From: Oerskovia rustica
GTDB lineage: Bacteria > Actinomycetota > Actinomycetes > Actinomycetales > Cellulomonadaceae
NCBI RefSeq assembly: GCF_014836555.1
Contig: NZ_JACSQQ010000010.1
Location: forward strand, 7,245 to 71,244
Reading direction: 5' to 3'
Length of the DNA: 64,000 nt
Positions within the stretch are counted from its first letter, which is position 1. Every line of letters begins with the position of its first letter. A model generated the notes under the pieces. The model saw only the letters and a program-made list of their open reading frames with translations, did not search any database and was not told the origin of the DNA. A program made the translations under genes and the position numbers. Positions 57,350-61,266 of the stretch are shown piece after piece.

Positions 57350-58243
57350 TCAGACGCTGGCGATCCCCGCCGCGCGCTCGGCCGAGTCCACGACGTTCGC
57401 GAGGAGCATCGCGCGGGTCATGGGCCCGACCCCACCCGGGTTGGGCGAGATCCAGCCCGCGACCTCGGCCACGGCCGGGTCGGCATCGCCCACGACACGG
57501 CTCTTGCCGGTCTCCTCGTCGACCTCGCGCGAGACGCCCACGTCGATCACGACCGCGCCGGGCTTGACCATGTCGCGCGTGATGATGCCCTTGACGCCTG
57601 CGGCCGCGACGACGACGTCGGCCCGGCGGACGAGCGCAGCCAGGTCCTGCGTGCCCGTGTGCGTGAGCGTGACCGTGGCGTTGACCGCGCGGCGCGTGAG
57701 GAGCAGGCCGATCGAGCGGCCCACGGTCACCCCGCGGCCCACGACCACGACCTCCTTGCCCGCGAGCGAGACGCCGTGGCGCTCGATGAGCTCGATGATG
57801 CCCCGCGGGGTGCACGGCAGCGGCGAGGTGACGTCCTCGTTGACGCGCAGCACGAGGCGGCCGAGGTTGGTCGGGTGCAGGCCGTCGGCGTCCTTGTCGG
57901 GGTCGATGAGCTCGAGCACGCGGTTGGTGTCGATGCCCTTCGGGAGCGGGAGCTGCACGATGTACCCGGTGCACGCGGGGTCGTCGTTGAGGCGGCGGAC
58001 CGCGGCCTCGATCTCCTCCTGCGTGGCCTCTGCGGGCAGGTCCTCGCGGATCGAGGACAGCCCGATCTCGGCGCAGTCGCGGTGCTTGCCCGCGACGTAC
58101 CACTGCGAACCCGGGTCGTCGCCGACCAGGAGGGTGCCGAGTCCCGGCACGACGCCGTGCTCGGCGAGGGTCACGAGACGGGTCTTGAGCTCGGCCTTGA
58201 TGGCGGCGGCGGTGGCCTTGCCGTCCAGGATCTGCGCGGTCAT
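57350..58243 (-). CDS. folD: Methylenetetrahydrofolate dehydrogenase/methenyltetrahydrofolate cyclohydrolase
   Basis: A 297-residue bifunctional one-carbon enzyme. It shows the catalytic pair Y49 and K53 ([10 protein letters not shown]), the loop QLPLPKGID, the NADP-binding [14 protein letters not shown] and the C-terminal signature [16 protein letters not shown] 58243 has GAGGAG five bases upstream. It follows glyA on the same strand; SHMT makes the methylene-THF that FolD oxidises, so both belong to one pathway and one probable transcript under a ZTP riboswitch. Confidence 0.96.
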
Positions 58244-58277: not shown

Positions 58278-58342
58278 CCGCTGAGTGCGGAGTACTTGTC
58301 GTGGATCGGCCGGATCGGCGACAAGTACTCCGCACTCAGCGG
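58278..58342. repeat. Perfect 24-bp inverted repeat between glyA and folD
   Basis: Arms 58278-58301 and 58319-58342 are exactly complementary over 24 bp around a 17-base loop containing CGGCCG. The arms are less G+C-rich than the surroundings (GTACTTGTCG inside). It starts 12 bases after the glyA stop and ends 34 bases before folD. It could be an intercistronic RNA stem-loop or a copy of a dispersed palindromic element; both arms begin with CCGCTGAGTGCGG-type sequence unlike the simple GC terminators elsewhere. Confidence 0.9.
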
Positions 58343-58354
58343 GTCATGCGTGAG

Positions 58355-59638
58355 CTACTGCGACAGTCCCGGGTACAGCGGGAAGTCGGCCGTCAGCTTG
58401 CGCACGCGAGCGCTCAGGCCCTCGACGTCCGCGCCGGCGCCGGCCTTGAGGGCAGCCGCGATGATCTCGGCGACCTCCGTGAACTCGGCGTCCCCGAAGC
58501 CACGGGTCGCGAGCGCGGGCGTGCCGATGCGCAGGCCCGACGTGACGCGCGGGGGACGCGGGTCGAACGGCACGGCGTTGCGGTTCACCGTGATGCCCAC
58601 GGCGTGCAGGAGGTCCTCGGCCTGCTGGCCGTCGAGCTCCGAGTGACGCAGGTCCACGAGGACCAGGTGCACGTCGGTGCCACCCGTGAGGACCGAGACG
58701 CCCTTCTCCGCGACGTCGGGCTGGGCCAGACGGTCCGCGATGATGCTCGCGCCGCGCAGCGTGCGCTCCTGACGGTCCTTGAACTCGTCGGAGCCCGCGA
58801 TCTTGAACGACACGGCCTTCGCGGCCACGACGTGCATGAGCGGGCCGCCCTGCTGGCCCGGGAACACGGCGGAGTCGATCTTCTTGGCGTACTCCTCCTT
58901 GGAGAGGATGAAGCCCGAGCGCGGGCCGCCGATGGTCTTGTGGACCGTCGAGGACACGACGTCGGCGAAGGGCACCGGGGACGGGTGCAGGCCCGCGGCG
59001 ACAAGGCCCGCGAAGTGCGCCATGTCGACCCAGAGCTTGGCGCCGACCTCGTCCGCGATCTCGCGGAACGCCGCGAAGTCGATGTGGCGCGGGTACGCCG
59101 ACCAGCCGGCGATGATCACGTCGGGACGGGTCTCGAGGGCCGTCTTGCGGACCTCGTCCATCTCGATGCGGTACGACTGCGGGTCGACGCCGTACGCCGA
59201 GACGTCGTACAGCTTGCCCGAGAAGTTGATCTTCATGCCGTGCGTGAGGTGGCCGCCGTGCGCCAGCTCGAGGCCGAGGATCTTGTCGCCCTTGTTGATG
59301 AGGGCGTGCAGGACGGCCGCGTTGGCGGTCGCGCCCGAGTGCGGCTGGACGTTGACGTGCTCGGCACCGAACAGCGACTTGGCGCGCGCGATCGCGAGGT
59401 TCTCGGCGATGTCGACCTGCTCGCAGCCGCCGTAGTAGCGGCGGCCCGGGTAGCCCTCGGCGTACTTGTTCGTGAGGACGGAGCCCTGCGCCTGCAGGAC
59501 CGCGCGCGGCACGAAGTTCTCCGAGGCGATCATCTCGAGGGTGTCGCGCTGGCGCGCGAGCTCCCCGTCGAGGACCGCGGCGATCTCCGGGTCCACCTCG
59601 AGCAGGGACTGGTTCAGGACGTTCGGCTGAGCGCTCAT
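58355..59638 (-). CDS. glyA: Serine hydroxymethyltransferase
   Basis: A 427-residue pyridoxal-phosphate enzyme that interconverts serine and glycine and loads tetrahydrofolate with methylene groups. Family motifs are intact: [47 protein letters not shown] and the PLP lysine in [17 protein letters not shown] 59638 has AAGGAG four bases upstream. Its leader contains a ZTP riboswitch. folD follows after a gap occupied by a long inverted repeat. Confidence 0.97.
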
Positions 59639-59681
59639 GCGTCTCCTTGGGTGCGTCTGCGGATGACGGTCTCGCGGGAGG

Positions 59682-59702
59682 GCGTGCCCCGTCCGGGCAC
59701 GC
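59682..59702 (-). terminator. Hairpin between the ZTP aptamer and glyA, possible expression platform
   Basis: GCGTGCCC (59682-59689) pairs perfectly with GGGCACGC (59695-59702), five-base loop, 44 bases before the glyA start and about 20 bases past the aptamer. It is a plausible off-state terminator. Confidence 0.6.
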
Positions 59703-59723
59703 TCCCCACAGGGGGCGACCCGG

Positions 59724-59848
59724 GGCCCAGGCGAACGACCCGTCGTCTACACAGCATGCCGCTCCCCGGTGGTGATCCACCATTCCCGTCCGTCCCGCGG
59801 CCTCCCCGGGGGGCGGCGTGCGGGGCGCGGGTGCGCCAGTCGCGACGT
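59724..59848 (-). ncRNA. ZTP (pfl) riboswitch upstream of glyA
   Basis: Read on the minus strand, the leader contains the hallmark blocks of the pfl motif in order: GTCGCGACTGGCG (about 59846-59834), GGTGGATCACCACCGGGGAGC, and CGCCTGGGCC near 59733-59724. These match the known consensus GACUGGCG ... GUGGA-A/U-CACCACCGGGGAGC ... CGCCUGGGC that binds ZTP/ZMP and activates one-carbon and purine genes when 10-formyl-THF is low. An extra GC hairpin of about 40 bases sits between the first two blocks. A TAGGAT -10 box directly precedes it, so the transcript would begin at the aptamer edge. Confidence 0.9.
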
Positions 59849-59853
59849 GCACG

Positions 59854-59859
59854 ATCCTA
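59854..59859 (-). promoter_or_regulatory. -10 box of the glyA-folD transcript
   Basis: TAGGAT on the minus strand; predicted transcription start near 59847, at the first base of the ZTP aptamer, giving a leader of about 209 bases. Confidence 0.65.
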
Positions 59860-59908
59860 GCCCACGTCCGCGTGCCGCGGCAGTGGCGGCCGTCACGCTG
59901 GGCTTGCC

Positions 59909-59944
59909 CCCCTGCCCGACGGCGGAGCGCACGTCGGGCAGGGG
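59909..59944. terminator. GC hairpin in the glyA upstream region
   Basis: 13-bp perfect stem (59909-59921 with 59932-59944) and ten-base loop. It lies downstream of the sugar ABC operon and may be a backup terminator insulating glyA. Confidence 0.6.
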
Positions 59945-59987
59945 CGTCACCCTCGGCGGGGCCGGGCGTCACCCTCGGCGGGGCCGG
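59944..59987. repeat. 22-bp direct repeat, two copies
   Basis: Two adjacent identical 22-bp units (59944-59965, 59966-59987) rich in GGCGGGGCCGG, between two hairpins in the gene-free interval 59639-60093. No gene product is encoded. Confidence 0.85.
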
Positions 59988-59996
59988 GCACGACGC

Positions 59997-60034
59997 AGCG
60001 GGGCGCGCGCGGCCCCCACCGCGCGCACCCCGCT
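59997..60034 (-). terminator. Terminator of the monosaccharide ABC operon
   Basis: Arms 59997-60012 and 60019-60034 pair at 15 of 16 positions with a six-base loop, 60 bases past the permease stop. Confidence 0.85.
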
Positions 60035-60093
60035 GGTCCGTGACCTCGGGAGAGGGTGTGCGCCCTCCCCCGCGTCACCTCCTGATCGCCGGC

Positions 60094-61266
60094 TCAGGAG
60101 AGCGCGGCACGCCTCTTGCTCAGCAGGTCGAACGCGACCGCGAGGAGCAGGACGAGGCCCTTGATCGCCTGCTGCCAGGCGGCGTCGACGGCCATGATCG
60201 ACAGGCCCATGTTGAGCACGCCCATGATGAGCGCACCGATCATGGCGCCGGACACGCGGCCCACGCCGCCTGCGACCGCGGTGCCGCCGATGAAGCACGC
60301 GGCGATCGCGTCGAGCTCGTAGTTCATGCCCGCCGCGGCCACACCGGCACCGGCACGCGAGGTCGTGATGACGGCCGCGACCGCGGCCAGCACTCCCATG
60401 TTGACGAAGATGCCGAAGTCGACGCGGCGCGAGTTGACGCCCGACAGCACGGCCGCGTGGCGGTTGCCGCCGATCGCGTAGATGTGGCGGCCGAACACGC
60501 TGCGGTTCAGGACGAACGAGTACGCGATGATGAGGATGCCCACGATGAGCAGCACGATCGGCGTCCCGCCCGAGCTGAGCGACAGCCAGTACGTCACGAC
60601 CCCGATCAGGACCGCCGCCAGGACGATCTTGACGACGAACGCGGGCAGCGGCTCGACGGCGAGCTCGTGGCGACGCAGCGAGGTCCGCGAGCGCCACTGC
60701 GCCACGGCGAACGCCACGATGCCGATGCCGCCGATCGCGAGCGTCACGACGTCGAGGTTCCCGACGAACCCGAACCAGTTGGGCACCGACCCGTTGCTGA
60801 TCGCGATGAAGCCGCTGGGCAGGCCCGCGACCGTGGTGCCGACCAGGACGATCGCGAGACCGCGGAAGATGAGCATGCCCGCGAGCGTCACGATGAACGC
60901 CGGTATCCCGACGTAGGCGACCCAGAAGCCCTGCCACATCCCGACGAGCGCCCCGACCCCGAGGGACAGGACCACGGCGAGCAGCCACGGCAGCTCCCAC
61001 TGGCTCATCATGATGGCGCACAGCCCCCCGACGAACGCGACGACCGAACCGACCGACAGGTCGATGTGACCGGCGACGATCACCATGACCATGCCGATCG
61101 CGAGGATCATCACGTACGCGTTCTGCTGGATGAGGCTCGCGACGTTGTTGGGGTAGAGCAGGCGCCCGTCGGTGAGGACCTGGAAGAGCAGGACGATCAC
61201 GAGCAGTGCCGCGACGATGCCGTACTGGCGGACGTTGCGGCCGAGGTATTCCCTGACGGCGTTCAT
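60094..61266 (-). CDS. mmsB: Multiple-monosaccharide ABC transporter permease
   Basis: A 390-residue inner-membrane permease of the ribose/xylose/galactose (carbohydrate uptake 2) class with about ten helices. It contains the family segments [20 protein letters not shown] and [20 protein letters not shown] (the ATPase-coupling loop) and ends [23 protein letters not shown] 61266 overlaps the ATPase stop (ATGA). A single permease would form a homodimer. A hairpin downstream closes the operon. Confidence 0.95.

Follow-up and report, generated by a model that had tools for sequence, protein, structure and literature searches.

A predicted ZMP/ZTP riboswitch with a peripheral hairpin arm in J1/2 in the glyA-folD leader of Oerskovia rustica

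Both the ZMP/ZTP (pfl) riboswitch class (RF01750) and its target genes are already known. The gene logic, the ligand and the ON direction of the class have been described (PMC2864571, PMC7337938, PMC7266159), and in a ZMP riboswitch the joint J1/2 forms a pseudoknot with the loop of P3 (PMC7337938). The element in the glyA-folD leader of Oerskovia rustica has the same P1, GACUGGCG, P2, GGGGA, P3 with CGCCUGGGC, pseudoknot and glyA/folD targets as the class, but differs from it in that the 5' pseudoknot strand is joined to P2 by 52 nt, which carry a hairpin arm. Likewise, it shares the J1/2-P3 loop pseudoknot with the ZMP riboswitch of Thermosinus carboxydivorans, which ends in a rho-independent terminator (PMC7337938), whereas no terminator with a U-tract was found for the Oerskovia element. 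A description of an inserted J1/2 arm was not found in the open literature, a scope that does not extend to the founding ligand paper and one main structure paper.

On the minus strand of the window (the whole 64-kb stretch of O. rustica DNA that was analysed), positions 59851-59722 very probably form a canonical ZMP/ZTP (pfl) riboswitch with a peripheral J1/2 arm in the leader of glyA-folD, and we put the probability of this identity and anatomy, as judged from sequence comparisons, at roughly 0.93. The minus strand, to which all coordinates below refer, presents in order TAGGAT (59859-59854), GACTGGCG (59841-59834), GGTGGATCACCACCGGGGAGC (59781-59761) and CGCCTGGGCC (59733-59724). The corresponding series of segments is GTCGC-GACTGGCG (59846-59834), the 52-nt joint, GGTGGATCACCACCGGGGAGCGGC (59781-59758) and GGGTCGTTCGCCTGGGCCC (59741-59723), 3' of which follow a leader whose hairpins overlap, then AAGGAG and then glyA. 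The earlier note had placed the pfl blocks behind a TAGGAT -10 box and had proposed a ZTP riboswitch controlling glyA-folD. The coordinates of the blocks were confirmed, with 43.1 bits for RF01750 and 84.9 bits for R1, a covariance model built from an alignment (A1) of 25 sequences of other genera and no Oerskovia. Identity and gene positions were likewise supported (RF01750, R1 and the Pfam matches given below), and control of the two genes would follow by analogy with the class.

The -10 box (59854-59859) lies 7 nt 5' of the P1 5' core strand, and transcription probably starts near 59850-59846. A TAGGAT/TAGGCT-like hexamer at comparable spacing was also seen in the glyA leaders of other genera; no -35 consensus was found. 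Downstream of the aptamer, the Shine-Dalgarno sequence AAGGAG (59643-59648) precedes glyA, encoding serine hydroxymethyltransferase (58355-59638; PF00464, E 5e-150), which is followed by folD, encoding methylene-THF dehydrogenase/cyclohydrolase (57350-58243; PF02882 and PF00763), so that the leader belongs to one-carbon genes, as in the ZMP/ZTP class with its one-carbon and purine gene leaders. Between the two genes is a near-perfect inverted repeat (58278-58342) with 30-nt arms, 93% complementarity and a 5-nt loop; one of its arms has, at up to three mismatches, six matches at five other places in the genome, which makes it probable that this is a dispersed palindromic repeat.

The aptamer as a whole (59722-59851, P1 to P3 including the arm) opens with the P1 5' strand GUCGC (59842-59846), followed by the first conserved block GACUGGCG (59834-59841), which is invariant in alignment A1, an invariance to be read with the search patterns, which demanded ACTGGCG. 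The 5' strand of the pseudoknot, GGCG (59837-59834), lies within this block. Then come the 52-nt J1/2 joint (59782-59833), in which the predicted fold places the hairpin proper at about 59831-59785, the P2 hairpin GGUGG-AUCA-CCACC (59768-59781; sequence and A1), the binding-core GGGGA together with the P1 3' strand GCGGC (59758-59767, the latter at 59762-59758; sequence and alignment) and the P3 hairpin GGGUC-GUUCGCCUG-GGCCC (59723-59741), whose loop provides the pseudoknot 3' strand CGCC (59733-59730). The blocks of the class, GACUGGCG, GUGG-CCAC, GGGGAGC and CGCCUGGGC, are thus all present in order.

Among 80 distinct family sequences, P1 pairs 1-5 form in 79-80, and the P3 pairs are kept in 79-80 with C-G/G-C and A-U/G-C exchanges. 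P1 pair 4 alternates between U-A, U-G and C-G, and pairs 6 and 7 covary, forming in 56/80 and 62/80, where shuffles reached at most 40 and 44. Both helices show the pairing through change that marks the RF01750 class. Among the armed sequences alone, pairs 6-7 did not rise above shuffles, and P1 is therefore secure there for five pairs only. The pseudoknot strands GGCG and CGCC are complementary in 25/25 and invariant, which is complementarity only and gives no covariation to judge.

The covariance search proposed in the earlier note returned a significant RF01750 match on the minus strand (43.1 bits; gathering score 39), the sole Rfam match in the window, although with its 5' half misplaced into the insert. 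The alignment covers 59808-59718, and the sequence that it treats as the first block is GACGGACGG, which lies within the joint. In contrast, R1 places the 5' half at GACTGGCG (59841-59834) with 84.9 bits and an E-value of 8.9e-13, the next best match in the window reaching 13.9 bits. The model gave 84.4-87.6 bits, with coordinates that span the upstream block, in O. flava and at all seven loci of the genus Oerskovia (set g1; seven species, among them O. enterophila, O. turbata, O. douganii and O. merdavium). In other genera, orthologues without the insert have the sequence TAGGAT...GTCGCGACTGGCG-CATCA-GGTGGATC / GGTGGATCACCACCGGGGAGCGAC (66.3 bits). We also note that the ZTP riboswitch of O. 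flava (L074 1490-1611), with a 44-nt joint, is not reported by Rfam at the gathering threshold and scores 86.3 bits with R1.

One alternative is that the two first blocks compete, the arm being a built-in alternative P1/J1/2 and thus a switch within the aptamer. The near-equal RF01750 scores in Oerskovia, 43.1 bits in the window and 42.0 bits for the opposite choice in O. merdavium, are consistent with this. However, among the arms listed GACGGACGG occurs in those of Oerskovia only. Furthermore, in O. merdavium, where the aptamer letters outside the insert are identical to those of the window, the look-alike P1 strand is altered while the upstream block is kept. We therefore regard such a competition as very improbable.

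Still a little less probable is the compact aptamer as drawn by Rfam, in which GACGGACGG would provide the P1 strand and first block and the upstream GACTGGCG would be an unrelated leader. This is the alignment that RF01750 prefers in the window, and the model matches likewise over 89-91 nt in most Oerskovia species. We rejected it for four reasons. The GACGGACGG block departs from GACUGGCGG: it has a GG inserted, leaves mismatches in P1 and puts A opposite C in the pseudoknot. R1, free of Oerskovia, picks the upstream block at every Oerskovia locus. In O. merdavium, even RF01750 bridges the insert and settles on the upstream block, with a bias correction of 10.1 bits and hence 52.1 bits before correction; the uncorrected score of the compact alignment in the window is 45.0 bits. 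Finally, the upstream block stands at the same place behind the -10 box as in the compact orthologues. These comparisons, together with the conserved and covarying P1 that the upstream strand forms in the family sequences, show at the level of sequence that the upstream GACTGGCG is the true first block and that the choice of Rfam inside the insert is misplaced.

With the upstream block as the first block, the joint of the window (59833-59782) is 52 nt long, as against 2-8 nt in arm-less relatives, so that the insert amounts to roughly 45-50 nt. The GC arm between the first and second blocks that the earlier note had described, and had judged longer than the usual connectors, thus stands, its estimate of about 40 bases being a little low. 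In 221 Cellulomonadaceae genomes the joint lengths are bimodal: 104 genomes have joints of 2-8 nt and 42 have joints of 15-68 nt, and no joints of 9-14 nt were found among the pattern matches; since the joint was measured from ACTGGCG to GGTGGA and exact blocks were required, these counts are lower bounds, and one genome may be in both sets. Three loci (L101 3612-3691, L111 1615-1671 and L141 4141-4199) were excluded from the arm counts; in each of them two consecutive ACTGGCG copies precede a single P2, the nearer one being compatible with a compact aptamer.

The arm is found well beyond the window. Arms at the same site occur throughout the genus Oerskovia and in many other genera, and they recur in the Actinomycetota and the Burkholderiales, the latter sampled solely through a pattern scan of the genomes of 84,980 species. 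The insert begins with the same 15 nt (CACCCGCGCCCCGCA) in Oerskovia and in O. flava (sister genus g12), which has a 44-nt joint, and the Oerskovia arm is therefore older than genus g1. Among 67 distinct long joints from the Cellulomonadaceae and the 84,980-species scan, 66 have a predicted hairpin whose closing pair is no more than 5 nt from either end, where 29.6 were expected from dinucleotide shuffles, and the mean stability z is -2.36. Each of the six standard types is represented among the basal pairs, and the 67 arms contain 37 different stems of four pairs. In the window, the predicted closing pair is at most 3 nt away from either joint end; this arm is by itself not stabler than its dinucleotide shuffles (z -0.8, p 0.23), so that the claim of folding for the Oerskovia RNA rests on the arms of its relatives. 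Most likely, as far as sequence comparison can tell, the arm is a peripheral addition to an intact binding core. The least probable alternative is a relic that has kept the aptamer shape and lost ligand binding through an overlong joint, for which it can be said that the joint adjoins the pseudoknot strand, but all core positions are kept in the seven Oerskovia species and the armed genera, P1 and P3 covary, and GGCG/CGCC is invariant.

The presence of the arm tends to go with the regulated gene. In the family, counting loci in which the blocks are exact, 48 armed ones lie upstream of glyA and 1 upstream of purH, whereas the compact ones divide into 13 upstream of glyA and 33 upstream of purH, and in the 84,980-species scan the arms fell upstream of glyA in 48 cases and of purH in 1, with 5 unassigned; no deduplication of the loci was applied, and species that are related do not count as independent. 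There are also glyA switches of the compact form. The same genome has a purH ZTP riboswitch (L001; G000:C1:104868-104955, 49.5 bits), which has the same aptamer core and is compact (GACTGGCG-AG-GGTGG), unlike the armed glyA switch; it is located about 38 kb from the latter. A rather doubtful idea, to which we give a minor chance, is that the armed glyA riboswitches represent a functional subtype, in which an arm gained or rebuilt many times would adjust the kinetics of folding, the affinity for the ligand or the contact with a protein at glyA and not at purH.

By analogy with the class, the glyA-folD switch would bind ZMP/ZTP and act in the ON direction. P1, GACUGGCG, P2, the GGGGA core and P3 would form the standard two-part aptamer, closed by the GGCG-CGCC pseudoknot; when 10-formyl-folate is low, ZMP/ZTP would rise, and its binding would stabilize the pseudoknot and P3 and increase the expression of glyA-folD. 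With regard to the expression platform, no terminator-like site with a T run was found in 59600-60100. An intrinsic terminator overlapping the 3' end is common in ZTP riboswitches and is not a defining requirement. No conserved complement that could sequester the Shine-Dalgarno sequence was seen by eye in the leaders of the relatives. We also considered an anti-P3 helix, CUGGGC/GCCCGG, as the OFF state and rejected it because its fold is about 9 kcal/mol worse than the one containing P3.

Two overlapping hairpins follow the aptamer. The first, H1 (GGGUCGCCCC...GGGGAGCGUGCCC; 59695-59721), was matched in 25 distinct family glyA leaders, which were chosen by a sequence motif, and could serve as a stem against the second, the large hairpin T (59673-59710), which is without a U-tract. 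Pairing of the halves of T was compared with shuffles and gave a mean z of -1.7, with 15 of the 25 leaders below -1.5; as judged by eye, one pair of the T stem is U-G, U-A or C-G across the Oerskovia species. RNAalifold recovered P3 only in the post-aptamer stretch, probably because the variable hairpins fail to align. H1 and T are mutually exclusive, as would be expected of an expression platform, and it is our conjecture that P3 favors H1. In such a scheme, H1 (59721-59695) would be favored when P3 forms and would prevent formation of the larger hairpin T (59710-59673). As the link from P3 to expression, this step is possible, but we advance it tentatively and would not bet on it.

The RF01750 model accepts about 25 extra inserted nucleotides (L055 to L047) at a cost of about 2.5 bits before bias correction, and because the cost is so low, this suggests that the RF01750 seed already contains long inserts at the site of the arm. 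Our findings indicate that the ZTP aptamer apparently tolerates hairpins of 15-68 nt right beside the pseudoknot strand, and that automatic annotation can misplace the 5' half of the aptamer or, as for the copy in O. flava, miss the aptamer altogether. Since a switch tends to be armed or compact according to the gene that it regulates, the two forms allow the influence of peripheral arms on the co-transcriptional folding of a well-studied switch to be tested in a natural setting.
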